Made by a program: the position numbers and the translations under genes. Source: Nitrospirota bacterium (GTDB lineage: Bacteria > Nitrospirota > Nitrospiria > SBBL01 > JAADHI01). From it: a DNA stretch of 47,072 bases. The notes beneath the pieces are model-generated. The model had not been told where the DNA came from. It ran no database searches and was given only the letters and a program-made list of their open reading frames with translations. The stretch is taken from assembly GCA_029261135.1 (NCBI GenBank), contig JAJDBX010000037.1:1-47072 (forward strand). The letters are read 5' to 3'. Positions 7,180 to 27,607 of the stretch are shown here, piece after piece. How positions within the stretch are numbered: the first letter of the stretch is position 1; each line of letters begins with the position of its first letter.

Positions 7180-7211
7180 TAATTATTACCGACGATATTA
7201 TGGAGAAAACA

Positions 7212-8561: not shown

Positions 8562-8571
8562 AGTCTTGATC

Positions 8572-9849: not shown

Positions 9850-11178
9850 ATGAGCATTAAAAACGATCAAACTGAAATCGCCTACATTATGAAGGAATAT
9901 CCTCGTCTTTCAGAGACCTTCATTATGAACGAGATCTCACTTCTGGAAAATATGGGCTTGAATATCCAAGTATTTTCTGTAAAAAAACCCTCAACATCAT
10001 CAAAACAACACTCGACGTCTCGCCCGCTTCGGTCTGAAGTTACATATCTTCCTTCGGTCACATCCTTATCAGGGAGCAGTTTATTGGGCTGGCTTTGGGT
10101 GAACCTGTCTAAGTTTACTCAAAGTCACTTTTATTTATTGAGGCGACGGCCTTGGGCCTATCTATCCACATGGCTTCAGGTTGTTCAGATGACGGTTCGG
10201 TATCGTTCGGGGTTTTTCGATAAACCAAAGAAGACCTTTATTAAGGAGTTCCTTCAAGCAGGATATATCGCAAGTCAAATACTCACCTCGGGTCGTATTG
10301 GTCATCTGCACGGTCATTTTTGTCATGGATCGACAACCATCACCATGTTTGTAAGTCAACTCACGAATATTTCTTTTAGTTTTACAGCACACGCAAAGGA
10401 CATTTATCTATCGAAATTGAATCCAGGAGATCTTCTCAAAAGAAAAATAAAAAAATCTCGGTTTGTTGCGACCTGTACCGGGGCAAACCAGGCCTACCTC
10501 AGCAAGCTCTGCCAGGGGAATCAAGCCGTCCATACAATTTATCATGGCTTAGATCTCCGTGTTTTTAAACCGATTGAAGGAAATAGAGGTTCTCAAGAAA
10601 GACCGATTATTTTGTCTGTGGGTCGCTTTGTTGAAAAGAAGGGTTTTGTCTATTTGGTAAAAGCGTGTAGGGCCTTAAAAGATAGAGGATACAATTTCCA
10701 ATGCAGGATTGTCGGTGAACCAGATGAACAAACAGAAGTGATTAAGAAATTGATCCAAGACTTAGGATTAAAGGAGAACATCCTCATCACCGATGGCGTG
10801 ACCCAGGAAGCCTTAAGAAAAATATACAACGAATGTACTGTCTTTGTTCTGCCCTGTCAAATTGTGGATAACGGTGACCGCGATGGCATCCCTAATGTCT
10901 TGGTAGAAGCTATGGCAATGGAAATCCCGGTGATTTCTACGTCAATATCGGGCATACCCGAACTGATTGACGATGGAATCGATGGGCTATTGGTCCCACA
11001 GAAAGATGTCAAGGCTTTGGCAGATGCACTTGAAAAAACCCTAAAAGATCCAGTAGTCAGAGTGAAATTAGGCCAAGCTGCTAGAGAAAAAGTGTCTGCA
11101 CGATTCAACTCAAATAAAACAAATATCGCCTTAAAGGATTTATTTGTATCGTGTGTAGAACGAGGGAATCATTTTTAA
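9850..11178 (+). CDS. GT4-family glycosyltransferase, WcaL-like
   Basis: A 442-residue GT-B enzyme. The opening IAYIMKEYPRLSETFIMNEI and the central HLHGHFCHGST ... FTAHAKDIY blocks are typical of the WcaL/AmsK-like branch of GT4 retaining transferases used in exopolysaccharide assembly. The donor site shows VGRFVEKKGF near residue 258 and the EX7E-type region NVLVEAMAMEIPVISTSISG preceded by GDRDGIP. It is preceded by a 108-base gap with a small hairpin, the largest gap early in the cluster, so an internal promoter is possible. AAAGG lies 9 bases before the ATG. Its stop overlaps the next start as TAATG. Confidence 0.9.
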   Translation: MSIKNDQTEIAYIMKEYPRLSETFIMNEISLLENMGLNIQVFSVKKPSTSSKQHSTSRPLRSEVTYLPSVTSLSGSSLLGWLWVNLSKFTQSHFYLLRRRPWAYLSTWLQVVQMTVRYRSGFFDKPKKTFIKEFLQAGYIASQILTSGRIGHLHGHFCHGSTTITMFVSQLTNISFSFTAHAKDIYLSKLNPGDLLKRKIKKSRFVATCTGANQAYLSKLCQGNQAVHTIYHGLDLRVFKPIEGNRGSQERPIILSVGRFVEKKGFVYLVKACRALKDRGYNFQCRIVGEPDEQTEVIKKLIQDLGLKENILITDGVTQEALRKIYNECTVFVLPCQIVDNGDRDGIPNVLVEAMAMEIPVISTSISGIPELIDDGIDGLLVPQKDVKALADALEKTLKDPVVRVKLGQAAREKVSARFNSNKTNIALKDLFVSCVERGNHF

Positions 11179-13220
11179 TGACCAACATTGAGATAAATAA
11201 CGCAACCGGTATCTTTCGTGAGCCCTATCGGTATTGGTCTCCGGAGAAACTCTTGTCTTATTTCCAGAATCGAACCGGGATCCACTATTTTCCTGTCATC
11301 GACGAAACAGAAACGCGTCGAAAAAAGATAGAGAATATTCTCCTGAATCGTTTTGAATTTAATCATGAGTCATATTGTTTGTCAGAAGCTTTTGAGTGGA
11401 CTGATAATCCGAGTTCGGATATCGAGTGGTTGATACTGTTTCATAAGTTCTACTACTCAGTCGGATTAGGAATCGCCTTTCATGAAACGAAAGATCGACG
11501 GTATCTTCAAAAATGGATCGACCTGACTACTTCCTGGATCAACACAGTTTCTCCAGGGTTTCTATCAAGCGATGTGGCGGGAAGGCGTATCCAGAACTGG
11601 ATCTATGCACATTACTATTTCGTCACCCTTAATCCGACGGTACAACTTCCTTCAATATTTTATATCCAATTTTTGAAATCAATGAACGATCAAGTCATCC
11701 ATCTTGCAAATCACTTAACTCCGGCCCGTAACCATCGAACTTTGGAACTCTATTCAATTTTTTTAGCAGCCGTCGTTTTCCATGAGTTAAAGGGCTCTGA
11801 TATGTGGCTTGCATTTGCTAAAGAGGAGCTTCTGAAGAATATCCAGACAGACATTCTCGCAGACGGCGTCCATTGCGAGCTTTCTACAGATTACCACCAC
11901 ATTGTCCTTAAAAATTATCTCAATATTCGAAAACTGGCATCTCTTAATCACATTTCTATGCCTGAAGAGATGGATAAGCAGATCATGAAGGCACTCGAAT
12001 TTTCTATTTATGTTCATAAACCGGATGGTTTTATTCCTTCGCTCAGTGATGGCGATGTCGGAAGTTATTTAGATCTTTTAAGAGAAGGGCATCTGCTCTA
12101 TGGTTGCGAAAAAATGTTATATGCCGCTTCCAAAGGAAAATCGGGTCATCCTCCTTTGGAAAGGTCAAAAGGGTTTGTCGAAAGCGGATACTATATCCTC
12201 CGGAGCGGGTGGGGAAATAGCGCAAAAGCATATGAAGACGAGCGCTACCTTGTTTTTGATTGCGGCCCATTGGGGGCGGGAAACCATGGACATCTGGATT
12301 GTCTGAGTTTTGAAATGGCGGCCTACGGCCAGTCGTTAATCGTCGATCCGGGACGCTACACCTACGATGAATCTGGAGGCATCAATTGGCGTGTCCGATT
12401 CCGCGGAACGGCCTATCACAACACGGTACTCATCAATCAAAAGAATCAGACACGCTACGCCTTTCATAAAAAGAAATTTAAAATAAAAGGCCCGGAACCG
12501 GATCAGGAGATCAAAACCTTTATAAGTGAGCCAGGATTTGACTTTATCCACGGAGTGGCTCGTAGTCACGAGTACGAAGCTACACACGAGCGAAAAATCT
12601 TTTTTGCCTGTGCTGAATATTGGATTATATCAGATCTTTTACGGGCTGAATCATCACATGAATATGATCGGTTCTTTCATCTTTCTGATCAAGCCGATGG
12701 AAAGGTTTCAGTCATAGATGATCAGGATACTCTATTGGTGAATGCCCCTCATTTGATCATGGCGCAAGCCCATGATCCACAGGTGAACCTTTTTGTGGAG
12801 GAAGGCTACGTTTCTAAAACTTACGGAGTAAAATTGCGTGCGCCCGTTCTCCGTTACGCGAGCCATGCCGCTAATGCGATTTACCATACGATACTCTATC
12901 CGTATAAAAGGGAAAAACCCGAAATTTCTGTGGAAGTATTGCCTGTTTTATATAACGCCCAAGTTTGTGACAGTGCTCAAGCTTCGGCGCTATGTATCAC
13001 GATTTCTAAAAATGGACAAACGCATAAAGACTATTATTTCAGTAAAGACCCTGATTGCATTGAAACATGCACTTTCGGAGATTTTTCCTACAGTGGCACG
13101 CTCCTTTTTATTAGAAAAGATCCGAAGGGAAACATAACGGCTCTTCATAAAGATTCGGGAAAAATATTTAAAGAGGAGTCATCCTTCATATCACTAGGAC
13201 AGCGCTTCTTAACCAGGTGA
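11178..13220 (+). CDS. Heparinase II/III-like protein 1, no signal peptide
   Basis: A 680-residue protein with the family's two parts: an N-terminal alpha/alpha-toroid (about 1-330, containing RNHRTLELYSIFLAAVVF) and a C-terminal beta-sandwich with GAGNHGHLDCLSFEMAAYG (His370, His372), VDPGRYTY and AYHNTVLINQKNQ. The family cleaves uronic-acid polysaccharides by beta-elimination; relatives inside biosynthetic clusters may edit or epimerise glycans. No export signal is visible, so this one should act in the cytoplasm unless exported otherwise. The start at 11178 is supported by GAGGGA about 10 bases upstream and the TAATG overlap. A paralogue follows. Confidence 0.86.
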   Translation: MTNIEINNATGIFREPYRYWSPEKLLSYFQNRTGIHYFPVIDETETRRKKIENILLNRFEFNHESYCLSEAFEWTDNPSSDIEWLILFHKFYYSVGLGIAFHETKDRRYLQKWIDLTTSWINTVSPGFLSSDVAGRRIQNWIYAHYYFVTLNPTVQLPSIFYIQFLKSMNDQVIHLANHLTPARNHRTLELYSIFLAAVVFHELKGSDMWLAFAKEELLKNIQTDILADGVHCELSTDYHHIVLKNYLNIRKLASLNHISMPEEMDKQIMKALEFSIYVHKPDGFIPSLSDGDVGSYLDLLREGHLLYGCEKMLYAASKGKSGHPPLERSKGFVESGYYILRSGWGNSAKAYEDERYLVFDCGPLGAGNHGHLDCLSFEMAAYGQSLIVDPGRYTYDESGGINWRVRFRGTAYHNTVLINQKNQTRYAFHKKKFKIKGPEPDQEIKTFISEPGFDFIHGVARSHEYEATHERKIFFACAEYWIISDLLRAESSHEYDRFFHLSDQADGKVSVIDDQDTLLVNAPHLIMAQAHDPQVNLFVEEGYVSKTYGVKLRAPVLRYASHAANAIYHTILYPYKREKPEISVEVLPVLYNAQVCDSAQASALCITISKNGQTHKDYYFSKDPDCIETCTFGDFSYSGTLLFIRKDPKGNITALHKDSGKIFKEESSFISLGQRFLTR

Positions 13221-13272
13221 AGCCTACTACAAGTGAATGCAATTGATTCCTAAAATATCGGAAGAAAATTCT

Positions 13273-15423
13273 ATGATCTTGAGTCACGACAATCCTCCTT
13301 TTAATTTTTTGTCAGCACCATATGATTCCATGGGTTCAAAGGCCTTGTTGTCTTATTTTCAAAATCGGGATACGGTTCGACATTTCCCTCTTTCAAAAGG
13401 CTCAAGAGACTATGGACAAAAGGCTGATCAGATTATTGAACATGTTTTTTCTTTTAATAATGAAACCCACCATTTTTCTAAAAGTTTTGATTGGAAGGTC
13501 AATCCTAGTCACGATATTGAATGGCTTATTTTGCTACATAAATTTTATTTTGCGAATGATCTGGGTAAAGCTTATGCATATTCTAAAAATGAAAAATACG
13601 CTAAAAAATGGGTTGAGCTTCTTTTATCTTGGATAAAAAATGTACCCGAAGGGTTCATTAATAGCCAAGTCACCGGGAGAAGAGTGCAGCAATGGGTTCT
13701 GTCTTATCGTTACTTTATCCCAGAAAGCGCTTGCGCTGAGATACAGCCTTTTTTTCTGATTGCGTTCCTCAAATCTATTCACTTACAGGTTCGTTACTTA
13801 ACAAAAAACTTAACAGCCTCAGGAAACCACCGAACCATCGAGTTGTACGCGATCTTCTTGGTTGCCACCCTCTTTCCAGAACTGCGCGATTCGGACATCT
13901 TCCTCACCTTTTCCATAACGGAAATTCTCAAAAATATGCAACAAGACCTCCTTTTAGATGGGGTACAGAAGGAGCTTTCACCGGATTATCATCATACGGT
14001 ACTCAAAAACTACCTCAAAATTAAAGAACTCGCCACTTTAAACGAAATCCCTTTACCACTCGAATGTGACCATCTCATCCAGAAAGCACTCGAATTTTCA
14101 CTCTATATACACAAACCAGCAGGTTTCATCCCGGCTGTGAGTGACGGAGATCGTAACAGTTATCTTCCTTTACTGAAAAAAGGAGTTGAATATTATCGGG
14201 ATCCACACCTGCTTTATGTTATTTCTCAAGGGAAAGAAGGCTCATCTCCGCCGTCTCGATCAAAAGGATTTCGTGAGAGTGGATACTATGTCCTCCGAAG
14301 CGACTGGGGGGAAATGCCCTACGATGAAGGACTTTATTTCTTTTTTGACTGTGGACCGCTGGGAGCAGGAACGCATGGTCATTACGATCTTCTCAATTTC
14401 GAAATGTCGGCCTATGGTCACGACCTGATTGTCGACCCTGGAAGATATACTTATAGCGAAGAGAGCGATGACGGCGTCAATTGGAGAAAAATATTTAAAG
14501 GAACCGCCTCCCATAATACCGTGCTTGTTGATGGGAAAGATCAGACCTCGTATCGGCGTGGGAAACCAATCAGTCCAGAACCGAAGGCTGTTTTAACGGA
14601 ATTTACCACTGCCGAGGGATTCGATTTTATTGCTGGGAAAGCTGTCAGTCAAGAGTATCCGGTGGTCCATGAACGGAATGTTTTCTTCCTTCCCTCCGAA
14701 TATTGGATTATCTCAGATAGATTACAGGGAGAGGGGTCTCATCATTATGCCCTTAATTTTCACTTACACCCCAGGGCCGTTTGTCAGACTATCATTAAGC
14801 AACGCGAGAGAGGGATTGCTGTTACATCTCCGAATCTCATGATTGTGCAACCAAAGGTAGATAGGGTTTCATCTACGATAGTAGCCGGTTTTGTTTCTCC
14901 ACAATACGGGGTGAAACAAAAAGCGCCTATCATTACTTTTTCACAAAATTCAATCGGCCCGACGTTTTTTGATACCCTGCTTTACCCCTATCGAACCAAT
15001 GAGCCAGATATCTCGGTCGAAGAGATCCCTGTTTATCATCATGGGGTATTGTGTCCAAAAAAAGAAGTCACTGCCCTGAAAATCACAATTAAAGGAGATC
15101 AGGGCTTCTATTCTGACTATTTCTTACACACGCATGGAGCGGGACTGAAAGAATATGACTTTGAAGACATCACATATAAAGGGAAATTACTATTTCTTAG
15201 AAAAAACAAGCAAGGCCGCATCTTGAATTTACAGGCAAATCATATCGATTATATGAGCGTAAATGGACACCTCATCCTAAGCTTTGAAGGGTCACCAGGA
15301 AGAGTCAGCTATCAGAAGGAGATCCTTCACTGTGACACCGATGCCGTATCATTCAGGGTTGACTTAGAAAATGTTCAAAAAATTATTCATACGAAATCGG
15401 CAGACATTAAAAATTTTAATTAA
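13273..15423 (+). CDS. Heparinase II/III-like protein 2 (tandem paralogue)
   Basis: About 716 residues, homologous along its length to the preceding gene: YFQNRDTVRHFPLS near the start, GNHRTIELYAIFLVATLF in the toroid and GAGTHGHYDLLNFEMSAYG (His368, His370) with SHNTVLVDGKDQ in the beta domain. No signal peptide is seen. It has a longer tail than copy 1 (RKNKQGRILNLQAN and a further ~60 residues). The start at 13273 is favoured by GGAAGA just upstream; an ATG at 13237 lacks an RBS. With its partner it suggests an intracellular uronate-glycan processing step, for example trimming, quality control or C5 epimerisation (inference). Confidence 0.84.
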   Translation: MILSHDNPPFNFLSAPYDSMGSKALLSYFQNRDTVRHFPLSKGSRDYGQKADQIIEHVFSFNNETHHFSKSFDWKVNPSHDIEWLILLHKFYFANDLGKAYAYSKNEKYAKKWVELLLSWIKNVPEGFINSQVTGRRVQQWVLSYRYFIPESACAEIQPFFLIAFLKSIHLQVRYLTKNLTASGNHRTIELYAIFLVATLFPELRDSDIFLTFSITEILKNMQQDLLLDGVQKELSPDYHHTVLKNYLKIKELATLNEIPLPLECDHLIQKALEFSLYIHKPAGFIPAVSDGDRNSYLPLLKKGVEYYRDPHLLYVISQGKEGSSPPSRSKGFRESGYYVLRSDWGEMPYDEGLYFFFDCGPLGAGTHGHYDLLNFEMSAYGHDLIVDPGRYTYSEESDDGVNWRKIFKGTASHNTVLVDGKDQTSYRRGKPISPEPKAVLTEFTTAEGFDFIAGKAVSQEYPVVHERNVFFLPSEYWIISDRLQGEGSHHYALNFHLHPRAVCQTIIKQRERGIAVTSPNLMIVQPKVDRVSSTIVAGFVSPQYGVKQKAPIITFSQNSIGPTFFDTLLYPYRTNEPDISVEEIPVYHHGVLCPKKEVTALKITIKGDQGFYSDYFLHTHGAGLKEYDFEDITYKGKLLFLRKNKQGRILNLQANHIDYMSVNGHLILSFEGSPGRVSYQKEILHCDTDAVSFRVDLENVQKIIHTKSADIKNFN

Positions 15424-15430
15424 GGCAATT

Positions 15431-16801
15431 ATGCTACAAAAAAAAATAGATCCCCAATTTCCACAGATGACATTCGCCTTAGACATGACATTGGTGCGTG
15501 AGATCTTGCAAGAAAAATTGTTTGCTCATCCCCATAATCGAGGCGGTCGCTTTGTCATCGAATCGTGCAAGTTGGGTGAACAGCGATACAAACCGGGGAA
15601 AAGCTGTGTTTTATCCTATTGTCTACAGATTTTAAATACCGACAACAAGACAGTTCGAGAACAAATTCTTTATGCGAGGCTTTGTAAAGTAGGCGAAGGC
15701 TTGTCTTCATTTGAACGCGCGCGTCAAAAAGAGCAATTTGATTTAGAAGGTATTCTCCCGATTATTTTTCTCTCTGATCTTGAAATCGTCATTTGGACTT
15801 TTCCAAATGACCGGAAACTCACCCACTTACCCAAAATGTTTGACCTCTCTTTTCTGCATAACCTCCTACCGAAAAGACTGGCAGCCTTGGATCTTCTCCA
15901 ATCCAAACACTTGAAAACAATAAAGGCAGACGTGGTTCACTATTTGCCAGAGCGCTCTTGTATGGTCCGCTATGAATTGGGAATCGAAAATCGAAAATCG
16001 GGTGAAGTGAGTCCAAGGATTATTTTCGGAAAAATCTACCCGGATGAAAGCAGCGGAAATGTCTATCGCATCATGACCTCTTTATCGAGTCAAATAGAAG
16101 GGATGAGGGTCGCCAAACCCTTGGGGTATGACCCGGAGATTAAGGTTCTTTGGCAATCAGAGCTCCCGGGTCGACCTTTTGAGAAAGAGGAGATCAATAA
16201 GGATTGCGGAAAAATCATGGCACAAGTGGCGGTGACTCTTGCAAGATTTCATAGCAGCAACTTGAAGAGTCAAACCCAATTTAAATTTGAGGACATTAAG
16301 CCCCTTTTAAAAGAAACCTCTGCTCTCGTGGACAAAACTTATCCCCAATTGTCCAATCGTGTGCGATTACTGGTACAGACCCTACTTATTCAGTCTGAAA
16401 ATGTCGAACTTTTAACAACACCCATCACCCCGATTCATGGAGATTTGAAAATAGGGAATATGTTGATTGATAAGGGTAAGGTCGGCTTGATCGATATGGA
16501 TTGCGTCTGCCTCGGAGATCCACTGCATGACCTAGGTAGTTTTATCGCAAATTTTTATTATAACGGCATCCGCGTTGAATCTGATGAGAAACGGGTCAGA
16601 TGGCTTGTGGAGGAATTTTGTCGCGTTTATTCCAAGCAGGTGGAATGGGAAGTGTCTGATGCGCGTCTTCATTGGCACATCTCCGCAGCTTTCATCTATG
16701 AAATTGTCAGGAGAAGTATCCGTCAATGGAACGTGAGACGTCTGAAACACATCAATCAATATCTAGATCTGAGTGAACGTTATTGTTTCCAGAGCCGGTA
16801 A
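15431..16801 (+). CDS. APH-fold phosphotransferase 1 of the glycan cluster
   Basis: A 456-residue kinase-fold protein. The C-lobe has the canonical Brenner motif HGDLKIGN (His336-Asn343) and the metal-binding Asp in GLIDMD, then GDPLHDLGSFIAN. The N-terminal half carries YKPGKSCVLSY and later YLPERSCMVRY, which look like a duplicated N-lobe strand pair, plus the motif IWTFPNDRKLTHLP that is shared with the two related genes downstream. APH/choline-kinase-fold enzymes phosphorylate hydroxyls of sugars, alcohols or aminoglycosides; here the substrate is probably a sugar or glycan substituent rather than an antibiotic. The start at 15431 has AAGG just upstream and follows the previous stop by 7 bases. 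Confidence 0.8.
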   Translation: MLQKKIDPQFPQMTFALDMTLVREILQEKLFAHPHNRGGRFVIESCKLGEQRYKPGKSCVLSYCLQILNTDNKTVREQILYARLCKVGEGLSSFERARQKEQFDLEGILPIIFLSDLEIVIWTFPNDRKLTHLPKMFDLSFLHNLLPKRLAALDLLQSKHLKTIKADVVHYLPERSCMVRYELGIENRKSGEVSPRIIFGKIYPDESSGNVYRIMTSLSSQIEGMRVAKPLGYDPEIKVLWQSELPGRPFEKEEINKDCGKIMAQVAVTLARFHSSNLKSQTQFKFEDIKPLLKETSALVDKTYPQLSNRVRLLVQTLLIQSENVELLTTPITPIHGDLKIGNMLIDKGKVGLIDMDCVCLGDPLHDLGSFIANFYYNGIRVESDEKRVRWLVEEFCRVYSKQVEWEVSDARLHWHISAAFIYEIVRRSIRQWNVRRLKHINQYLDLSERYCFQSR

Positions 16802-16815
16802 AATCAGGACAAAAA

Positions 16816-18441
16816 ATGATGCCGACAATCCAAGACCATAAAATAGACAACAAAAACCGATGCATTGCGCTCTATCCGGGAGCTTTTCGGCCACCCCATG
16901 CAGCCCATCTTAAAGCAGTGCTTGATCTGGCCAGGCGGCCGGATGTCGACGAGGTGATCGTAATCATCTCCAACAGATGCCGTAGCATTCCCGGGACGAC
17001 CAAGGCGCTTGGCCCGGATGTCGCCCGCCGTATCTGGTCAATCTATTTGCAGGGGATGAAGAAGGTTCGAGTAGAGATTGCATCTCACACTTCAGTGAAA
17101 CATGCCTTGGGTTACTTCGCACGTGTCGAAAGCGGTGATACCTTATTGTTCTGTATTGGAGAGTCAGACTTCAAGGCAGGTGACGAGCGCTTTAAAGGAA
17201 TAAAAAACTTTTCAAAACAAACTGGCGTTGTCGCGCTTCCCATTGCCGCCCCGACCGGGTCTATCACAGTTAGAGCGACTGATTTGAGAAAAACGTTGGC
17301 ACTTGGGGATGCCGGGCACGATGTTTTTAGCGCTGCTCTTCCAAGAGAACTGGATGTCGCTCAGCGTGAGCGCGTCTGGACAGTATGCCAGGAGGGGATG
17401 AGGGAAATAAGCGAAATCATCCAGGAAAAAGTCCGATCCTTCATCATTAAAAATGAACTAGGCGACATCAAAGAAATCAGCAGTGCTTGTGATGGGAAGT
17501 TAGATCAAGTCTACCGTGTCCGCTTCAAAGATAATCGGTGTTATTTTGTGAAATATGCGGGAGATACTGTGACATCGGGATCTTTAGGAAATAAACTGAG
17601 CCCCAAGCCTAAACGACGTCTTTCTGCAGAACGGCGCGCGCTCAATAGATTAAGAGATCATGGTATTCATGAGGTCGATCTCCCTGAAGTCGTACTTTTC
17701 GATAAAGAGACCTTGACCCTTGTGTTGACAGAGGTCTGCCCGGAAGGGAGACCGTTACTAGAAGACATGAGAAAGGGCCTGTTTGATCCGAATGTTGCAT
17801 CTCAGGCCAGTCGATTTCTCGCACGATGCCACAACTTGAAGACACCTATTGCGCCAGTCTGGGGGGATCAAAAAAGCGATCAACAGCACTGGGAGAGGAT
17901 GCTGGAGTTACACACCGGGGGGATCAAGTCAGGTAGGCTTTCAGAACGGCTTTGTCATGGCCTGAAAAGGTTAAAACGAGCGAGCAAGATCACCACTGAA
18001 GAAACGATTGGAAACCGGCTTTTGATGCTGGATTGCTCACCCAAGAATATCTTTGTGGAAGGGCAGAAAATCGGGGTCATCGATTTTGAGCTCAGCTCAA
18101 GTATCGGAGATCCCGCTTATGACCTGGGTCTTTTTTTAGGACACTATGTTCTTTGGGGACTCATCGCCCCGTCACATTTTTCTGCTCAGAAGGCCCTTCA
18201 AGAAGCGATCAATGTCTATCGAGACAAGATTGGAGATCTGTGGTCGGATATTTATCCACGAGTGCTTGCATTTACCGGAGCCACAGTACTCTACCAAGTT
18301 ATTGAAAGTGATCAGAACAATTTCAAAAAATACGAGTTGGGCTTAATTCGCACGGCGGAGGCCTTGATTTCATTTGGGCTTGATCAGCTTGAACCCATTG
18401 ATCAGGTACTGAGCAGTGCCATTTCTGGAAAATTTGCATAG
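16816..18441 (+). CDS. Fused HxGH-type nucleotidyltransferase / APH-fold kinase
   Basis: A 541-residue two-domain protein. Residues ~15-190 form a cytidylyltransferase-like Rossmann domain with GAFRPPHAAHL (HAAH at 28-31, the HxGH position) and the second signature ITVRATDLRK near 150, as in NMN/phosphopantetheine adenylyl- and TagD-type cytidylyltransferases. Residues ~220-541 are an APH-fold kinase with LDCSPKNIFV near 405, GVIDFE and GDPAYDLGLFLG; the usual His before the catalytic Asp is replaced (M-L-D). A kinase joined to a nucleotidyltransferase suggests two-step activation of an alcohol or sugar to an NDP derivative (inference; compare HldE, which uses other kinase folds). The start at 16816 follows AGGA. 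Confidence 0.8.
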   Translation: MMPTIQDHKIDNKNRCIALYPGAFRPPHAAHLKAVLDLARRPDVDEVIVIISNRCRSIPGTTKALGPDVARRIWSIYLQGMKKVRVEIASHTSVKHALGYFARVESGDTLLFCIGESDFKAGDERFKGIKNFSKQTGVVALPIAAPTGSITVRATDLRKTLALGDAGHDVFSAALPRELDVAQRERVWTVCQEGMREISEIIQEKVRSFIIKNELGDIKEISSACDGKLDQVYRVRFKDNRCYFVKYAGDTVTSGSLGNKLSPKPKRRLSAERRALNRLRDHGIHEVDLPEVVLFDKETLTLVLTEVCPEGRPLLEDMRKGLFDPNVASQASRFLARCHNLKTPIAPVWGDQKSDQQHWERMLELHTGGIKSGRLSERLCHGLKRLKRASKITTEETIGNRLLMLDCSPKNIFVEGQKIGVIDFELSSSIGDPAYDLGLFLGHYVLWGLIAPSHFSAQKALQEAINVYRDKIGDLWSDIYPRVLAFTGATVLYQVIESDQNNFKKYELGLIRTAEALISFGLDQLEPIDQVLSSAISGKFA

Positions 18442-19826
18442 TGATAAGGATGAAATCTTTGGAAAGGGAATCACAGGAAAAAGACTTTGATCGTTTCACT
18501 GATCCAAGTCAGATAAAAACGCTCTTTCAGGCGAAGCTCCCTCTATTTTCGGAAGATGTACTGAGGATTAAAAGCTGTGAGATCGGACATACTTGGTATA
18601 AGACATATCAGAAGCAGTCATCTTATGCCAGGTCGTTTCTTGCAATCTGTTATCACCTTCGTGTCACGAATCTCCTAAGTAAAAAATCCGGGGAACAGAT
18701 TCTCTATGCCAAGACCTATCTCGAAAACCGCAGTCGAGATGAATTTGAAAAGGTGAGAAACAACGGATTTGTAAGCCCACACTTCGGAGAAGCGATCGCA
18801 CACCTCCCTAAGCTTGACATGATTGTGTGGGCTTTTCCCAATGATCCCGTGTTGCTTCATTTGCCACAATGCGTTAATCCTGAAGAAGTTTCAAAATATT
18901 TTCCCTATGAAAATCTACCTTCAGGTCTTAATCGCACCGAAGATATACGAAAGATCGATACTGAGGTGATTCACTACCGTCCAGAGATCCGCTGCACCAC
19001 CCGATATACCCTGAAATGGGGAAAGACTTCAGAACCAAAGGAAATGCTTCTCTTTGGGAAAACATTCAATGATGATCAGGGAGGGGTTCTTTATGAGAGA
19101 TCCCTTGCTTTTTGTCAGGAGAGTCGGCGTGATCGCGACAGTTTTTTGGTTGCACAAGCTTTGGGATACAACAAAGCAATCAAAACCCTCTGGCAAGTCG
19201 GGTTAAAAGGGAAAGCATTGGTTGACTTGATGGATGAAACAAATTATGTCCCCCTGCTTCAGTCGGTTGCAAAGGGGCTTGCGAGCTTTCATCAAAGCAG
19301 ACTCACCAGTCCGGTTCGGGTCTCAAAATTCGACCAAATCATAGAAATTAAAAAAAAGATCGCGAAGTTAATCCATGCCTTTCCACAATTTAACCTCACG
19401 CTGAAATCGATCGAGCAAGGCTTGGAAAAGGACGGGAAACAATTACCGACAATCTCGGACAAGATCATTCATGCCGACTTTTCTGTGCAGCAACTCCTTG
19501 TGTGTGGGAACAAGGTTGCCTGCTTTGATTTTGATGAATTTGCGATGGGAGATCCGATTCAAGATATCGCAAATTTTATCGTCGATTGCCATTTCCGTTC
19601 CTTCAAACAGAGTATTATTCCATCAATGATTTCGGTTTTTGTCCAGGCTTATGAAAAAAAAGTCGGTTTTAAAATCTCAATGGATCGCTTGAACTGGTAT
19701 ATCCAGATGCTCTTTCTCACAAAGGCCTATCGGTTCTACCTTCAGCAAAGACCTCAAATGGAAAATGAAATTAAGAAGATTATTTCTCTCGCTCAAAAAG
19801 ACATCCTGTTGGGAAGGGCAGAATGA
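18441..19826 (+). CDS. APH-fold phosphotransferase 2
   Basis: A 461-residue paralogue of the kinase at 15431. Shared landmarks are MIVWAFPNDPVLLHLP near residues 130-145 and VIHYRPEIRCTTRYTLKW near 175. The active-site segment reads HADFSVQQ (His344-Gln351): the catalytic Asp346 is kept but the metal-ligand Asn of HxDxxxxN is Gln. The DFG-like Asp is in CFDFDEFAMGDPIQD. The GTG at 18441 overlaps the previous stop (TAGTG); an ATG at 18450 is an alternative start. The substrate is unknown and a resistance role is unlikely in this setting. Confidence 0.76.
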   Translation: MIRMKSLERESQEKDFDRFTDPSQIKTLFQAKLPLFSEDVLRIKSCEIGHTWYKTYQKQSSYARSFLAICYHLRVTNLLSKKSGEQILYAKTYLENRSRDEFEKVRNNGFVSPHFGEAIAHLPKLDMIVWAFPNDPVLLHLPQCVNPEEVSKYFPYENLPSGLNRTEDIRKIDTEVIHYRPEIRCTTRYTLKWGKTSEPKEMLLFGKTFNDDQGGVLYERSLAFCQESRRDRDSFLVAQALGYNKAIKTLWQVGLKGKALVDLMDETNYVPLLQSVAKGLASFHQSRLTSPVRVSKFDQIIEIKKKIAKLIHAFPQFNLTLKSIEQGLEKDGKQLPTISDKIIHADFSVQQLLVCGNKVACFDFDEFAMGDPIQDIANFIVDCHFRSFKQSIIPSMISVFVQAYEKKVGFKISMDRLNWYIQMLFLTKAYRFYLQQRPQMENEIKKIISLAQKDILLGRAE

Positions 19827-19829
19827 AGT

Positions 19830-21227
19830 ATGAATGAATTATCCATACAAGACATCAACATGAAGAGCTTTGAGGTTTTTACTCATCAAGAAAAAATGAA
19901 AGACTTATTTCAATTGAGGCTTCCTCGCTATTCCCGGGGGGATCTAGTTATAAAAAAATGCACGCTTGAGATTTACAGGAATAAGACGCTCTCAAAGAAC
20001 CCTTTGAAATACAAATGCCCTATGGAGATTGCTTATAGACTGGAAGTGATCGACCTTTCTGGGCGACCCTACGGGATACAAGAATTATATGCAAAAGCTT
20101 ATCATCCTGGTCAAAGCCTGGTGGAATTCAAAAAAATCCGTGATGGAGTTCTCTCTCATCCCCAGATTGGGGGCTTTGTCGTCCATCTTTCTGATTTAGA
20201 TATGATTGTTTGGTCGTTCCCAAATGATCCGGTATTATCCAACTTGTCTGAGCTGCTCTCTTCCAAAGAAATAAAAAAATACTACCCATACGGTAATTTT
20301 CCCTCGGGCTTTGATGAGCCGGGAGACATCATCGAAGTTACGAAAAACATCGTGAACTACAGAGCTGAACGTCGTTGCCTCATCCGATATTCTTTAAAAT
20401 GGGGGAATTTAGCTGACCCGAAAACTTTCACTGTATTTGGAAAAATGTTTAGAGGAGAGCAAGGAAAAGAGATCTCTCGTCGGATGCAAATATTATCCGC
20501 GATATTTAATGAATCCCCAGATCGTTTTTTGGTGGCACGGCCATTGGGGTACGATGACAGGATCAACACTGTTTGGCAAGAGGCTTTAGAGGGTGACCCT
20601 TTGGTGGCTGTCATTGATTATACAAATTATAAACATTTCATGGAGACTGTTTCAAAGGGGATTGGACATTTTCACAATTGTACGCTTGACAGCCCTGATA
20701 AGATCTCAACCATAGATCGTCTCAGGGAAGTCAAAAAAAAGGCGACCGTCCTCTCCCATACATTTCCACAATTTAAGGAGATATTTCTTTCCATTGTTGA
20801 TAACCTGGAAAGAAATATCTCCCATTTGAGTCCCATTGAAAATAAAATAATCCATGCCGATTTTTCAATCCATCAGTTACTTGCTTGTGGAGATGAGGTT
20901 GCTTTTTTTGACTATGATGAGTTTGCAATAGGAGATCCGTGCCAGGATCTTGTGAAATTCATTGTCGATTTATATCTTAGGGGTTTTGATTTGAATCTTG
21001 TCAAATTAATGGTGGCATCATTTTTTAGCACCTATCAGCAACAGATCGGCTGGAAAGTGCCGCTTGATCGCTTCGCCTGGCAAATACAAGCGCAGTGTAT
21101 CATCGAGGCTTACATCATTTACACCAGACAGGAACCTGAGTTGAAAAAAAAACTTGCAACCATTGTTCAAATATCCCAGATGAAGTGGAACCCGATTGAC
21201 AGGCTTACCGCAGTGAGGTTCGTATAA
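19830..21227 (+). CDS. APH-fold phosphotransferase 3
   Basis: A 465-residue close paralogue of the preceding gene, which ends 3 bases upstream. It has MIVWSFPNDPVLSNLS, IVNYRAERRCLIRYSLKW and the active-site segment HADFSIHQ (His342-Gln349), again with Gln in place of the metal-ligand Asn, then FFDYDEFAIGDPCQDL. Two adjacent copies sharing the same substitution argue for a functional subfamily rather than decay. A 17-bp perfect inverted repeat sits in its coding sequence at 20777-20822. Confidence 0.76.
   Translation: MNELSIQDINMKSFEVFTHQEKMKDLFQLRLPRYSRGDLVIKKCTLEIYRNKTLSKNPLKYKCPMEIAYRLEVIDLSGRPYGIQELYAKAYHPGQSLVEFKKIRDGVLSHPQIGGFVVHLSDLDMIVWSFPNDPVLSNLSELLSSKEIKKYYPYGNFPSGFDEPGDIIEVTKNIVNYRAERRCLIRYSLKWGNLADPKTFTVFGKMFRGEQGKEISRRMQILSAIFNESPDRFLVARPLGYDDRINTVWQEALEGDPLVAVIDYTNYKHFMETVSKGIGHFHNCTLDSPDKISTIDRLREVKKKATVLSHTFPQFKEIFLSIVDNLERNISHLSPIENKIIHADFSIHQLLACGDEVAFFDYDEFAIGDPCQDLVKFIVDLYLRGFDLNLVKLMVASFFSTYQQQIGWKVPLDRFAWQIQAQCIIEAYIIYTRQEPELKKKLATIVQISQMKWNPIDRLTAVRFV
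20777..20822. repeat. Intragenic perfect inverted repeat, 17-bp arms
   Basis: GGAGATATTTCTTTCCA at 20777-20793 and its exact reverse complement at 20806-20822 enclose 12 bases, inside the third APH-fold kinase gene. The mRNA would form a strong hairpin in the coding region. Confidence 0.85.
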
Positions 21228-21327: not shown

Positions 21328-22237
21328 ATGGACTCTCTTAAGAAAAAAAAATATTTCGAGAACCTATGTGTTGACGATTGATGTCGAAATTGATGCAGGG
21401 CGGAAGTGGAAAACATCAAATCCTGCGACCTACGAGGGAATGACCCTGGGGATAGGAATCCTTCAGAAGCTTTGTGAAAAGTACGGGGTAAAACCGGTTT
21501 ATCTTATCAGCCCGGCAGTCATGGTGGATCGGACATCCGTCCGATTTCTCAACGCGCTCAACTGGGATCGCTGTGAACTCGGAACACATCTACATGGAGA
21601 GTACATCGCGCCGATGGCAAAGTTTTCTGGAGAGGATTTTAGCGGGTGTGACCCGGAGGAGATGCAATGCGAATATGCGGAAGAGATCGAATTCAAAAAA
21701 CTGGAAAACCTGACCGACAAATTTAGAAACCTCTTCGGACACACCCCGAAGTCATTTCGCGCGGGACGTTTTGGTGCACGAGGATGGACATTGGCGTGCT
21801 TAGAAAAATTAGGGTATACCCATGACACGAGCGTAACTCCTTTTCGAAAATGGCACGATGTTGTCGATTTTTCAAAGCCCGAAAGCCTTTCTCCCTACTA
21901 CCCCTCGAAAGAAAATATTTGCACCCGTGGAGACGCCAGAATTTTAGAGGTCCCGGTTTCCATCACGCCGGATATCACATGGCTCCGGCCCACACCGCGC
22001 CGTTTTTCGGATTTTGAGCAATGCAAAAAAGTCATCGACTGGTACGAAGAGCACGTCAGCCCAACCGTGCTGTGCAGCATGTTTCATAATGTCGAGCTGG
22101 TCCCGGACAAAAGCCCTTACTGCAAAACAGAAGAAGACTGTGCGGGCATGCTGGAGACGATCGAAAAGACCTTTCAGCTGCTGACAGATCGGAACTATAG
22201 ATTCAAAACCCTGAGCGAAGTCACGGTGGACGGATAA
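21328..22237 (+). CDS. NodB-like polysaccharide deacetylase with A9 slippage site at start
   Basis: A ~300-residue deacetylase-family protein: metal-site LTIDVEID near the N-terminus, GTHLHGE with paired His, FRAGRFGARGW and a late MFHNVELVPD. The family removes N- or O-acetyl groups from glycans. The best start, ATG 21328 five bases after AAGGAGA, is in a different frame from the body (frame of 21368). The frames meet in nine A's (21343-21351): loss of one A gives MDSLKKKNISRTYVLTIDVE, a natural family N-terminus. Otherwise translation would begin at GTG 21368 with no RBS. So either transcript slippage is used, the gene is phase-variable, or the A-run is miscounted. No signal peptide is visible. 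Confidence 0.8.
21343..21351 (+). other. A9 homopolymer joining the start codon to the deacetylase frame
   Basis: Nine A's follow ATG-GAC-TCT-CTT-AAG. Eight would place the strong RBS and ATG in frame with the deacetylase. Homopolymers of this length are known slippage and phase-variation sites. Confidence 0.65.
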
Positions 22238-22240: not shown

Positions 22241-23236
22241 ATGGAGAGTGCGTCTCAAATCCACAAAGTACTCATCATCCTCGATAAGTTCGGCTGGTCC
22301 TATGACACGATTGCAAAAGGGCTTGTAAAGCATAATACCAACAGCAGGGTTTCGCTGGACATCGTCTCTGTCAAGTCGGATTTCGATTATATCACGCAAA
22401 ACCACAGGCGCTACGATCTTGTTTTCGCCCTGGGCTGGACGCTCGTCATTTCAAAAAAGAAAAAGGAAGATTACCGGGAACTGCTGCCCTTTTTAGACCG
22501 CTCGAAACTGATTACAGGGATTCACTCTCATCGCTCGTGGGACGACTATCTGTCTCTTCCCAAGTCGAACCCTCCGCCTCCGGCGGCGCTTCTCAATCAA
22601 CTCGCAGGCCTAAAAAGCATCAATATTATCAGCCGGAGACTCTATGAAATATTTAAAGACGCCGGGCTGAAAAACATTGTCTTAACGGAAAACGGCGTGG
22701 ACACGGACTTGTTCACGCCCTCGCGTCCGGTGAATACGGATCGAAAGTTCCCGTTGATCCTCGGTTTTTCAGGCAGCACGAGCATCCCGAAACATGACCG
22801 TTTGAAGGGCTTTTCAGAATTTATTCTGCCCTTGAATCAGATTCCGAATGTCGCGGTCAGGGCGCTTGGCGGAAGAGGCGAGGGCCAGGTGAATAGGGAA
22901 AAGATGCCAAAACTTTACAATGAGGTTGATCTCTATGTTTGCGCCTCCACTTCCGAGGGATTTTCTCAAAGCGTACTGGAGGCCGCATCCTGCGGTCGGG
23001 GCGTCATTTCAACAAAGGTCGGCGGCTGCGAGGATTTAATCGAAACGGGTAAAAACGGGTTTTTTATCCAAAGAGATTTGATGGACATCAAAAAGCGGGT
23101 TTTGGAATTAGAGCTGAATCGCCCCTTGGTTAAACAGCTTGGCGAAAACAACCGAAAAACCGTGCTTGAAAAATATGCCTGGCCCATCCGGGTGAAGGAA
23201 TGGCTGAGGTTTATAGAGTCGAACCTTCCTGTCTAG
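22241..23236 (+). CDS. GT4-like glycosyltransferase
   Basis: A 331-residue GT-B-type protein starting 3 bases after the deacetylase stop. The C-terminal half is typical of family 4: LTENGVDTDLF, LGFSGSTS, YNEVDLYVCASTSEGFSQSVLEAASCGRGVISTKVGGCEDLI, then the ELNRPLVKQLGENNRKTVLEKYAW tail helix. The N-terminal acceptor half is short and lacks the usual Gly-rich loop, starting instead VLIILDKFGWSYDTIAKGL. Base composition is clearly more GC-rich than in the genes before 21 kb, as for the next two genes. Confidence 0.82.
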   Translation: MESASQIHKVLIILDKFGWSYDTIAKGLVKHNTNSRVSLDIVSVKSDFDYITQNHRRYDLVFALGWTLVISKKKKEDYRELLPFLDRSKLITGIHSHRSWDDYLSLPKSNPPPPAALLNQLAGLKSINIISRRLYEIFKDAGLKNIVLTENGVDTDLFTPSRPVNTDRKFPLILGFSGSTSIPKHDRLKGFSEFILPLNQIPNVAVRALGGRGEGQVNREKMPKLYNEVDLYVCASTSEGFSQSVLEAASCGRGVISTKVGGCEDLIETGKNGFFIQRDLMDIKKRVLELELNRPLVKQLGENNRKTVLEKYAWPIRVKEWLRFIESNLPV

Positions 23237-23245
23237 GGAATTAAA

Positions 23246-24406
23246 ATGACGATTATCTGCACCGGGAAAATCGCAAACACCACTGTGGGTCATATCGACC
23301 ACGCCATGTCCTATGTGAGCGGTTTTCAACACCTGGGCCATGAGGTCTATTTGATGGAACACGTGGGGGCAAACCGTTGCACCGATGCGCGCGGTCAAAA
23401 AGTCCCTTTTGAGCTTTGGGAAGGCCAGCGCCACTTTGAGGCCGTGGCGAAAGCCTACGGCGTCTGGCCGCGAGCTTGCCTGATCTATAAAGGGGGAAAA
23501 GCCACATTCGGGATGCCGTTTTCCGAGGCGGTCAAGGTGGCCAAGCGTTGTGATTTACTGATGACCCGAAGCGGCCAGATTCATAAGGCGCCGGAAATTT
23601 TCAATCATGCGCGGCGACGCGCTTATTTTGACGGCAATCCTGGGAACACGCAGGTCATGCTCGAGAAGGAAGGCGGCGCTTATGAAGCCTTGGACCAATA
23701 TCATGACCTTTTTACCCTCGGACTCAATATTGGCGCGGCCTCATGCGGCATTCCCACCGGAAACCGCCGGTGGCGTCCATTGGTTCGTCCGGTGTTTCTG
23801 CCGATGTGGCCCGTCCGCAGCGATCCCGCAAGCCGAGGGTTTACAACGATTTCGACTTGGAAGGGTAGGGCGCTTTTAGAGTGGAAGGGCCATTTTTCGG
23901 GGGAGAAATCAGACAATTGGCTCAAGTTCATCGCGCTCCCGAAAAAAACTGGGGCTCAATTTGAAGTCGCGATGAAGCTCGAGGCCCACGGTGACCAGGC
24001 CGATGCGGCGCTGTTTACGAAAAATGGCTGGCGGCTGACAGACCCCGAAAAACTCGAAAACCTTGATGATTATAGGAATTTTATCGGGCAATCCGGCGCC
24101 GAATTTAGCGTGGCCCATAACCGTTATGTCGCATTTTCGACGGGCTGGTTCAGCGACCGCAGCGCGCTTTATCTGGCTTCTGGAAAACCCGTTTTGGTGC
24201 AGTCCACCAGTATTGAAAACCATCTTCCGACGGGAAAAGGTCTGCTGACCTTTAACACAATGGACGAGGCCGCTGCAGGCGTCGAGGAAATCAAGCGGAA
24301 TTATCCGGCCCACTGCAAGGCCGCGCGGGAAATCGCCGAGACGTATTTTGATTCGGACAAGGTTCTCACGAAGCTACTAGAACAAGTTGGAGGGAGCGCA
24401 GGATGA
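23246..24406 (+). CDS. CgeB-like putative glycosyltransferase
   Basis: A 386-residue protein. The N-terminus (GHIDHAMSYVSGFQHLGHEVYLMEH) resembles GT-B acceptor domains. The conserved C-terminal run AEFSVAHNRYVAFSTGWFSD followed by RSALYLASGKPVLVQSTSIE and LPTGKGLLTFNTMDEA is the hallmark of CgeB/Glyco_trans_1_2-type proteins found in polysaccharide clusters. The assignment to transferase activity is by family recall; no classical DXD or EX7E signature is evident. It starts 9 bases after the preceding gene with AGGGA upstream. Confidence 0.65.
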   Translation: MTIICTGKIANTTVGHIDHAMSYVSGFQHLGHEVYLMEHVGANRCTDARGQKVPFELWEGQRHFEAVAKAYGVWPRACLIYKGGKATFGMPFSEAVKVAKRCDLLMTRSGQIHKAPEIFNHARRRAYFDGNPGNTQVMLEKEGGAYEALDQYHDLFTLGLNIGAASCGIPTGNRRWRPLVRPVFLPMWPVRSDPASRGFTTISTWKGRALLEWKGHFSGEKSDNWLKFIALPKKTGAQFEVAMKLEAHGDQADAALFTKNGWRLTDPEKLENLDDYRNFIGQSGAEFSVAHNRYVAFSTGWFSDRSALYLASGKPVLVQSTSIENHLPTGKGLLTFNTMDEAAAGVEEIKRNYPAHCKAAREIAETYFDSDKVLTKLLEQVGGSAG

Positions 24407-24476
24407 TTTCTGTGTTATCCCTGAATGATTGGGGAAAGTCCGTTTTAATCAGAAAGACGCGGCTGTCGGAGACGAG

Positions 24477-26501
24477 ATGAACATAAATAATAAAAAGGTG
24501 CTTTTTTACTGCCAACACGTACTGGGCATGGGTCATTTAATCCGAAGTCGGGAAATCGTCCATGCCTTAAGTGCGTTTGAGGTCTGTTTCCTGAACGGGG
24601 GAGAACTCATCCCCGGTTTTAAATTTTCTCCCGAGATCGAAGTCGTGAATCTCCCGCCGATCAAGTCGGACGCGGACTTTAAAGACATCCGGTCATCAGA
24701 GGGTTTTCAAAGTCTCGATGAGATCAAGGCAGCGAGAACGAAAAAAATTCTGGCAGAATACGCGCGTTTTCAGCCGGACGCGCTCATTATCGAACTCTTT
24801 CCCTTTGGAAGAAGAAAATTCGCCTTTGAATTGATGCCGCTTTTGACCCGTATCCGATTAGACGGCGGCCCAACAAAAGTGGTGTGCAGTCTCCGCGACA
24901 TCCTCGTCGGGAAGCGGGACCACAAACGGCACGAGGATCAGGTCATCACCACGATGAACCGGTATTTCGATTTGCTGCTCATCCACTCCGATCCAAAATT
25001 CCAGCGCCTTGAAGAAACATTTTCGAGGATGTGGGATCTTAAACCTTCGACGAAATACACGGGTTTTGTCGCGGAGGCCTGCCTTGAAGCCGCGCCCGAT
25101 CCCACTCAAAAAGATGCTCTGCTCGACGATTTTCTGAGTGGAGAAACGGAAAAACCCTTAATTCTCGCCAGCATCGGCGGCGGGCGGGTGGGCATCGAAC
25201 TCTTGGAGTGCGCCGTGAAAGCCAGCGTAGGCATCGAAAAAACCGTGCCGCACCGGCTTCTCATTTTTACAGGCCCCTATCTTCCCGAAGCAGATTACTT
25301 GAGATTGGAGAAGATGGCCTCTACGCACTCGAACATTTGCGTCAGAAAATATACGACCCGCTTTCTTTTTTTTATGAAACAAGCGGCGCTCTCCATCAGT
25401 ATGGCGGGCTACAACACCTGCATGAATCTCTTGGTGACTGAAACAAAGGCCCTGCTCCTGCCTTTTACAGGGAATCAAAATGAGGAGCAGACGATCCGGG
25501 CGGAAAAACTGGAGGCCCTGGGGCTGGCCGCAATGATCCCCCCGGAGGCCTTGGAACCGGCAGTGCTGGCAGAGAAAATCACGGCTTTGCTTGAAGCCGC
25601 ACCCGCTTCGACCCCTTTGGCAATCGACGGCGCGCAAAAAACGGCGGCGTTTCTTACGGAAATGCTGTCGGAGCCGGATCGAAAAATCGGTACGGGCAAA
25701 ATCAGATTAAAGAGTTCCGGGACAAGATTTAAGACCCTGGAGTCAGGGCTGAGGCAGAGCCTGGACGAACTGGCGAAAAAAAACAAAGCGATTCGGATTT
25801 TTTTGAGGGATGACGACGCAGACGACGATCTTGAAGCGCTGCGGAGCCTCTTTGATGTCACCCTGGCCTCAAGTGTCCCTTTAAATCTTGCAATCATTCC
25901 GGGCAGTCTGAGCGATGCGGGCATCCGGCTGCTGGACAACCACAAACATCTTCACCCTGATCTCTTTGGTCTCAATCAGCATGGGTGGCTTCACCTCAAC
26001 CACGAAAAGGAAGGCCGGAAGTGCGAATTCGGGCAAAGCCGCACATTCGATCAACAATTTGAGGATGTCTCACAGGGAAAGGCCCTGCTCGAAAATGTTT
26101 TTGGAGACAAATTTTATCCGGTTTTCACGCCACCTTGGAACCGATGTACAGAAGATACTTTCAAAGTGCTTGATCGATTAAACTTCAAAGTGTTCTCGAA
26201 AGATAAAGGCAAACAAGCTGTGACTGGATTCGCTTTTCAGGAGATCTCAACGACCCTCGATCTTTACCGTTGGAAAGACAAGCCCAGCATGAAAACACCA
26301 GAAGAAATCATAGAGGCCTTACTCGTTCAGATGAGAGCGGAGGATCCCATTGGGATCCTCCTGCATCATAAGGTTATGGGTCCTGAGGAATTTTCTTTTT
26401 TAGATTTCTTGCTCCGTGAACTTCGACGCTATCCAAATATACCATTTCATACCTTTGAGAGCCTTTCAACTCCGTCTATTCATGATGAGGCATTGAGATG
26501 A
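24477..26501 (+). CDS. Fusion: MurG-like glycosyltransferase + polysaccharide deacetylase-like domain
   Basis: A 674-residue protein. Residues ~1-400 are a third MurG-like GT-B unit (VLFYCQHVLGMGHLIRS; donor motif SISMAGYNTCMNLL near 310; PFTGNQNEEQTIRAEKL). Residues ~430-674 resemble a NodB-type deacetylase: RDDDADDD near 443 as the Asp pair, HGWLHLNHE from His502, FTPPWNR near 551 and late ILLHHKVM. The fusion would couple sugar transfer to deacetylation of the same product, or place the two on one scaffold (inference). The ATG at 24477 has GGAG 5 bases upstream and is preferred over a start at 24429. GC content falls visibly after about 26.1 kb, inside the second domain. Confidence 0.8.
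   Translation: MNINNKKVLFYCQHVLGMGHLIRSREIVHALSAFEVCFLNGGELIPGFKFSPEIEVVNLPPIKSDADFKDIRSSEGFQSLDEIKAARTKKILAEYARFQPDALIIELFPFGRRKFAFELMPLLTRIRLDGGPTKVVCSLRDILVGKRDHKRHEDQVITTMNRYFDLLLIHSDPKFQRLEETFSRMWDLKPSTKYTGFVAEACLEAAPDPTQKDALLDDFLSGETEKPLILASIGGGRVGIELLECAVKASVGIEKTVPHRLLIFTGPYLPEADYLRLEKMASTHSNICVRKYTTRFLFFMKQAALSISMAGYNTCMNLLVTETKALLLPFTGNQNEEQTIRAEKLEALGLAAMIPPEALEPAVLAEKITALLEAAPASTPLAIDGAQKTAAFLTEMLSEPDRKIGTGKIRLKSSGTRFKTLESGLRQSLDELAKKNKAIRIFLRDDDADDDLEALRSLFDVTLASSVPLNLAIIPGSLSDAGIRLLDNHKHLHPDLFGLNQHGWLHLNHEKEGRKCEFGQSRTFDQQFEDVSQGKALLENVFGDKFYPVFTPPWNRCTEDTFKVLDRLNFKVFSKDKGKQAVTGFAFQEISTTLDLYRWKDKPSMKTPEEIIEALLVQMRAEDPIGILLHHKVMGPEEFSFLDFLLRELRRYPNIPFHTFESLSTPSIHDEALR
26339..26361. 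repeat. Intragenic 23-bp palindrome
   Basis: GGAGGATCCCA (26339-26349), a single T, and the exact reverse complement (26351-26361), within the deacetylase-like part of the fusion gene, encoding EDPIGIL. Confidence 0.8.
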
Positions 26502-27607
26502 ATCGATGTAAAATCGTAATGATTGTCAGCGGTTTTCCCCGGTGTTCAGAAACCTTCGCCTTACAGGAACTCCTTGCTTTGTATAAAAAAGGATTGCTTG
26601 TTCGGATCTTTGCAACAAAACCGGGGGATGGTGCTCCCCTCCATCCTGATTGTCAGCCTCTTTTAGAAATCGTAGAACCGCTCGCTCCGGGCAGTCCTGC
26701 TCAGCAGGCCAAAGTTGTGATTGAACGACTGAAGGGTCAAATGGTTTCCGCCATACATGGTTACTTTGCCCATGTCCCGGCAGAGGTTGCCTCACTGGTG
26801 GCCAAAGGCATGGGCGTACCTTACGGTTTTAGCACACATGCGCTTGATGCTCGTAAGGTTCTTGCAAAGATTTTAAAAAAAAGAGCGCGAAATGCGGCTT
26901 GTATCATTGCCTGTAATCATGACGTGGCCAAGGATCTCACCAACATTGGCGGCAAGGTCACCTTGATTCCACATGGGGTTGATATCAAACGATTCAGTCA
27001 TTCCCCCCTGACTTTAAACGAGCCTATCCGCTTATTGGCCGTCGGTCGACTTGTTGAAAAGAAAGGATTCGATGTCTTGATTAAGGCCATCAGTCGCGTT
27101 TCCTTTCCTTTTCACCTGAGAATCGTCGGGGAAGGGCCTGATCGGGAACAATTAGAACAGGGTATTCTCGCTGCCAATCTCTCTGATCATGTTGAATTCT
27201 CTGGCGGCATGACTCACGCAGCACTTCCGAATGAATACAAAAAAGCCCACATAGTCGTAGTGCCCTCTATTGTTAATCGCGCTGGAGACCGCGATGGCTT
27301 GCCAAACGTGGTACTGGAAGCCATGTCCTCTGGACGGCCTGTAATTGCCAGTAAGGTGGGTGCGATAGAAAGCGCCATTGATAGTGGGGAGACAGGAATT
27401 CTTTTGCCGCCAGGAGATCCTGAGGCCCTCGCAAAAGCACTTGAATCACTCGTTAAAAACCCGAAACTTTACGAAAGGCTCGGCCAGAATGCCCGACAAC
27501 GAATCGTACAAGATTTTGAGCTCGGAATCTGCACCGAACGGCTTTCTCGTTTTTTAATCTCGGTGTATTCAGAGCAACCCATCCACGTTAAAACAATCGC
27601 CAATTAG
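26498..27607 (+). CDS. GT4-family glycosyltransferase
   Basis: A 369-residue WcaL-like GT4 enzyme: VSGFPRCSETFALQEL at the N-terminus, IHGYFAHVPAEVASLVAKGM and FSTHALDARK in the acceptor half, VGRLVEKKGFDVLIKAI, then GDRDGLPNVVLEAMSSGRPVIASKVGAI with the EX7E glutamates. It resembles the enzyme at 9850 in both halves but is shorter. Its ATG overlaps the fusion gene's stop by 4 bases (ATGA), so the two are probably translated together. Likely adds a sugar during repeat-unit assembly; specificity unknown. Confidence 0.9.
   Translation: MNRCKIVMIVSGFPRCSETFALQELLALYKKGLLVRIFATKPGDGAPLHPDCQPLLEIVEPLAPGSPAQQAKVVIERLKGQMVSAIHGYFAHVPAEVASLVAKGMGVPYGFSTHALDARKVLAKILKKRARNAACIIACNHDVAKDLTNIGGKVTLIPHGVDIKRFSHSPLTLNEPIRLLAVGRLVEKKGFDVLIKAISRVSFPFHLRIVGEGPDREQLEQGILAANLSDHVEFSGGMTHAALPNEYKKAHIVVVPSIVNRAGDRDGLPNVVLEAMSSGRPVIASKVGAIESAIDSGETGILLPPGDPEALAKALESLVKNPKLYERLGQNARQRIVQDFELGICTERLSRFLISVYSEQPIHVKTIAN

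Follow-up and report, generated by a model that had tools for sequence, protein, structure and literature searches.

Four consecutive genes in a Nitrospirota operon encode APH-fold kinase domains, and one of the four proteins carries a nucleotidyltransferase domain in the same chain. The genes (K1, NTK, K3 and K4) occupy 15431-21227 on the forward strand of the window, by which we mean the whole 47,072-nucleotide stretch of DNA analyzed, one whole contig of genome G000; in the list of open reading frames they are separated by a few bases or overlap. We tentatively propose that they may form the phosphate-handling module of a polysaccharide assembly and export operon, in which NTK would make an activated compound, NDP-X, and a glycosyltransferase would add X. 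The row of four kinase domains with a single fusion, described in the earlier note, is borne out by the reading frames, the PF01636 matches, the paralogy of K3 and K4 and the fold models. The features are as follows.

7200-8561 and 8500-9741, forward strand: two GT28-like glycosyltransferases, same operon
9850-11178, forward strand: GT4 glycosyltransferase
11151-13220 and 13237-15423, forward strand: HepA and HepB (heparinase II/III-like)
15431 (or 15371)-16801, forward strand: K1, APH-fold kinase with duplicated N-lobe; HGDLKIGN and DxD (IDMD) intact
16819-18441, forward strand: NTK, HxAH nucleotidyltransferase fused to a methylthioribose-kinase/PsiK-like kinase
16864-16908, forward strand: IALYPGAFRPPHAAH, first nucleotidyltransferase motif (HxAH) of NTK
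18441-19826, forward strand: K3, duplicated-N-lobe kinase; HADFSVQQ catalytic loop (Asp kept, Asn replaced by Gln), metal motif FDFD
19830-21227, forward strand: K4, K3 paralogue; HADFSIHQ catalytic loop, metal motif FDYD
21368-22237, forward strand: polysaccharide-deacetylase-like protein (NCBIfam match only, weak)
22241-27607, forward strand: glycosyltransferases, one of them a GT28/deacetylase-like fusion (24429-26501) that served as the cluster marker
27617-29398, forward strand: MsbA-like ABC exporter
29518-30918, forward strand: AlgE-like outer-membrane alginate export porin

To judge from its genes, which encode GT28 and GT4 glycosyltransferases, a heparinase-like pair, deacetylase-like proteins, an exporter and a porin, the operon at 7200-30918 is one for polysaccharide assembly and export. 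Domain profile searches recognized no further sugar-activation gene inside it. Promoter-like and terminator-like sites in the window did not exceed the shuffled expectation, and therefore no transcript boundary is claimed. For NTK, an upstream TTG at 16783 is also a possible start; counted from 16819, the nucleotidyltransferase covers residues ~11-195 and the kinase ~196-540. Elsewhere in the window are a transposase piece of the IS4/5 type (DUF4096; 4911-5315) and a protein with five DUF5666 repeats (5662-7140), relatives of which are found near the clusters of genomes G257, G091, G093, G101 and G149. Downstream of the operon lie cobalamin biosynthesis genes (CobD/CbiB, CobB/CobQ-like, CbiX and CbiC; 37560-41122).

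The kinases are of two kinds, with K1, K3 and K4 forming one family and the NTK kinase belonging to another. The catalytic and metal-binding Asp residues are present in all of the window copies (HGDLKIGN/IDMD in K1, LDCSPKN/IDFE in NTK, HADFSVQQ/FDFD in K3 and HADFSIHQ/FDYD in K4), the metal motif being DxD in the K1/K3/K4 family versus DXE in the NTK kinase. K1 (8.6e-19), NTK (2e-10) and K3 (1e-6) match the APH family PF01636 above the Pfam cut-off; K4, at 20.9 bits, falls just below the cut-off of 23.2, despite which it is evidently, by sequence, a paralogue of K3. A structure model built from the K1/K3/K4-family alignment has an APH fold (pLDDT 90.8) in which the strand/helix pattern of the N-lobe is seen twice, and comparison of the two copies by hhalign gave a probability of 97.2% and a score of 59.7; none of 30 column-shuffled controls exceeded 14.9. 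With the N-lobe doubled, these kinases have a protein architecture that is itself unusual. The fold matches of K1, which cover its second N-lobe and C-lobe, are nearly tied between a putative APH, homoserine kinase, maltokinase and choline kinase (Z 20-22). Maltokinase and glucosamine kinase have the APH fold plus an N-terminal cap, and the kinase part of K1 resembles them (Z 21.4 to 5jy7 and 19.0 to 6hwl); K1, K3 and K4 seem to differ in having the second N-lobe copy. The HxDxxxxN motif is kept by K1 in all copies spanning it; K3 and K4 carry Gln for Asn, as maltokinases do. Two side observations concern this family. In genome G160 (L016, 15937-16617), a second K1 copy is cut to a C-lobe reading frame beside a shortened HepB match, and a K3-type protein in L023 (45-1400) has the catalytic loop AHGAFRIKE, where Ala replaces the catalytic Asp, making it an apparent pseudokinase.

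A nucleotidyltransferase fold for the N-terminal domain of NTK is supported by modeling: the model matches PPAT with Z 15.3 over 152 residues, and phage cytidyltransferase-like domains rank first among its viral fold matches (Foldseek E=3.4e-11). The PDB match lists for the NTK model are filled by kinases. Sequence profiles give less, with a very weak Pfam match to CTP_transf_like (E=0.12), weak NadD matches of the domain profile (best E=0.0067) and no match of NTK to the NCBIfam NadD, CoaD or RfaE models at E<=0.01. The motif, which had been given as HxGH in the earlier note, actually reads HxAH. Every NTK relative spanning the region conserves it, as PGAFRPPHxAH, together with R-x-T-x-[LV]-R, and both His residues are invariant, whereas the Gly of HxGH is Ala in all of them. 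NTK shares with the HxGH enzymes NadD, CoaD and RfaE domain II the PPAT fold match, the weak NadD sequence match, an HxxH and the R-x-T-x-[LV]-R type of motif, but departs from them in HxAH. Since the same genome encodes separate NadD and RfaE-domain II proteins, both above NCBIfam cut-offs, NTK is not a housekeeping copy of either. The phage domains, among them those of the uncultured virus A0A218MMM0 and Synechococcus phage S-PM2, are annotated as cytidyltransferase-like only, and the top one is 23% identical to NTK over 221 columns. Combining a kinase and an HxGH-type nucleotidyltransferase in one chain is a feature that NTK has in common with HldE (ADP-heptose) and NadR; the kinases of those two proteins are of the ribokinase-like and P-loop folds, not APH.

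Across ten Nitrospirota NTKs of full or almost full length, the mean pairwise identity is 63% in the nucleotidyltransferase half and 52% in the kinase half, with 36% versus 19% of positions invariant. By this sequence comparison, the nucleotidyltransferase is the better conserved half of the protein.

By fold, the nearest neighbors of the NTK kinase domain are methylthioribose kinase (Z 28-29, the best of 1000 chains), PsiK (23-26.1) and LxmK (24-25.2), compared with Z of 17.8 or less for other APH enzymes, and Foldseek agrees (5-methylthioribose kinase, E 2.3e-9). With this group the NTK kinase shares, besides the fold, the DXE metal motif reported for kinases of the MtnK/PsiK/LxmK type (PMC2194712, PMC11808438), which appears as DFE or DWE in the NTK copies spanning it. 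It differs in its low identity (~15%), its fusion to a nucleotidyltransferase and its variable catalytic Asp. In addition, TIGR01767, the 5-methylthioribose kinase equivalog, does not match NTK at E<=0.01. No RR pair, the twin arginine that binds methylthioribose in MTRK, was seen in the C-lobe stretch inspected by sequence. As for a choline or ethanolamine kinase joined to a cytidylyltransferase, in the manner of the Kennedy or LicCA type, weak matches to the Choline_kinase Pfam family occur in 4 of the 14 NTK members (best 3e-6). Methylthioribose kinase phosphorylates its sugar at O1 (PMC2194712); however, MTRK acts on a sugar, PsiK on an indole and LxmK on a peptide, and therefore the fold is no guide to the substrate of NTK.

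The catalytic loop of the window NTK (LDCSPKN) has the Asp but keeps neither the His nor the Gly of HGD. The Asp is replaced by Asn in 3 of 14 relatives (L002, L004 and L008), which represent three genera; the equivalent mutant of PsiK, D224A, is inactive (PMC11808438). All three variants come from metagenome-assembled genomes, where a single-base error is possible, although three at one codon are unlikely, and K1 is intact in each of these genomes. These Asn variants make it probable that in some NTK homologues a different kinase supplies the activity or the kinase domain serves for binding only. The earlier note had proposed that the fusion by itself would convert X to X-phosphate and then to NDP-X; the two domains do lie in one chain, but, given these variants, the fusion alone performing both steps is not supported.

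NTK relatives were sampled by one contig scan with two peptide patterns, in 395 genomes of the phylum and in 399 + 398 genomes around the Nitrosomonas one. They were found in metagenome-assembled genomes labelled Nitrospirota, Nitrospirales or Nitrospira, and their clusters belong to several Nitrospirota families and to two Nitrosomonas-type genomes. Wherever the context could be read, NTK lies in or beside a polysaccharide cluster. Within the class, 12 of 269 genomes have NTK and 32 of 269 the cluster marker, which is carried by 11 of the 12; the twelfth is fragmented and has ABC and AlgE pieces beside NTK. The earlier note had named co-occurrence of the fusion with glycan genes as a check, and it is seen here; conservation across families and in two phyla excludes chance. 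The earlier note had also suggested a dedicated pathway from the three further kinases. They do stand beside NTK, but a single pathway with each of them as a step is not supported: K3 and K4 are paralogues, the family numbers one to four copies per cluster, and K1 was the only further kinase found in the two Nitrosomonas-type clusters. The Nitrosomonas-type clusters are accompanied by UDP-glucose dehydrogenase and UDP-glucuronate epimerase-like genes and, in one case, by GalU. We found no description of this polymer cluster in the literature searched.

Most clusters without NTK have a histidine phosphatase gene (HisP) instead, usually between K1 and K3. Among the clusters laid out, 14 have only NTK, 19 only HisP, none both and two neither (G159 and G260); three further clusters, cut by contig ends, stand outside these counts. 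A Fisher test on counts of 13, 18, 0 and 2 gave p 1.8e-7 with relatedness ignored. The mutual exclusion rests on clusters of shared ancestry, and some HisP clusters are near-copies; HepA, for example, is identical in G264 and one Manganitrophus plasmid. The HepA tree is the better test of exchange. On it, the NTK/HisP label needs four changes, at least three of which are forced by well supported branches, as where G160 (NTK) is sister to G165 (HisP), and none of 200 bootstrap trees had only one label change. In family f15, NTK follows AlgE and is not in the slot between K1 and K3, and the Nitrosomonas-type NTK is likewise in another part of the cluster or next to it; the exclusion is therefore a property of the cluster, not of the slot alone. 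HisP-like matches elsewhere in the NTK genomes tested are only 24-31% identical, versus 43-48% between cluster HisPs. The closest NCBIfam model to HisP is alpha-ribazole phosphatase, below cut-off. The swapping of NTK for HisP suggests that both proteins may handle the same phosphorylated building block.

In the proposed pathway, a hydroxyl compound X would be phosphorylated by the NTK kinase domain, or by K1 where that domain is damaged, and the nucleotidyltransferase domain would convert X-phosphate and NTP to NDP-X and pyrophosphate. One of the glycosyltransferases of the operon would then add X to the polymer, whereas clusters with HisP would remove this phosphate, or one like it. Additional sugars or the glycan may also be substrates of K1, K3 and K4. 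We favor the nucleotidyltransferase as the half of NTK that would be essential. The polymer probably contains a uronate, since UDP-glucose dehydrogenase and UDP-glucuronate epimerase-like neighbors occur together with lyase-like proteins. A pentose-type X, which could be derived from the MTRK-like kinase and the alpha-ribazole-phosphatase-like, though sub-cut-off, HisP, was set aside because the evidence is too thin. In the fullest version of the proposal, NTK would represent a new class of kinase-nucleotidyltransferase whose product, an NDP-activated substituent not described before, is destined for an acidic exopolysaccharide, and it would have been repeatedly exchanged with a HisP acting on the same phosphorylated intermediate. 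We consider this version unlikely as a whole; if it were true, related bacteria would make substituted or bare versions of one polymer. The NTK-phosphatase exchange offers a concrete handle on the substituent that distinguishes the polymers. Among the Nitrospirota, nitrite and manganese oxidizers live mostly in biofilms.

The main rival to activation of a monomer is phosphorylation of the glycan, where K1, K3 and K4 would act on the polymer or a lipid-linked precursor, much as WaaP-type kinases phosphorylate the LPS core, while HisP would trim the phosphates and NTK would cap them or add a group. The several kinases per cluster and their variable number, the window operon without another recognized sugar-activation gene, and an exchange that fits alternative fates of a phosphate all speak for this scheme, which deserves serious thought even if we doubt it. 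Against it, the HxGH-type enzymes of known function use, to our knowledge, small phosphates and not polymers. A narrower alternative concerns only the fusion, whose kinase half might be a degenerate binding or regulatory domain, leaving NTK a nucleotidyltransferase served by K1. The Asn variants and the loss of the catalytic-loop His in most Nitrospirota copies, with Lys257, Glu283, Asn422 and Asp434 invariant in the alignment, point this way, as does the constancy of HxDxxxxN in K1. Nevertheless, the window NTK and most relatives keep the Asp and DXE, and the Nitrosomonas-type loops read HLDLQPKH and HLDFQPKN; we consider this alternative rather improbable.

The two remaining alternatives would take NTK or its neighbors out of glycan metabolism. 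NTK could be an NAD-precursor enzyme, a kinase joined to an NMN/NaMN adenylyltransferase as in a NadR-like salvage protein; this was the alternative named in the earlier note, and it is suggested by the NadD-type profiles being the best, though weak, matches and by phage proteins 25% identical to NTK that are annotated as NMN adenylyltransferase. It has lost ground and is now very improbable, given that a separate NadD passing curated cut-offs is encoded in the genome, that NTK is sporadic and tied to glycan clusters, and that the PPHK stretch of this NadD is replaced by SNRCRxIPGTT in NTK. A role of the kinases in antibiotic or toxin resistance would account for their PF01636 membership and for the automatic labelling of relatives as, for example, aminoglycoside phosphotransferase. 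We find it scarcely credible, in agreement with the earlier note, because the polysaccharide-gene context is conserved from Nitrospirota to the Nitrosomonas-type genomes and no NCBIfam resistance model came near its cut-off.

Candidatus Manganitrophus isolate GAC2 also carries the cluster, on small circular plasmids. A tblastn search of plasmids with NTK returned only distant kinases. CP114557.1 (L058) and CP114560.1 (L061), of 37 and 34 kb, carry the cluster without NTK, and it fills about half of each. In CP114557.1, a radical SAM protein and a histidine phosphatase are encoded between K1 and K3.
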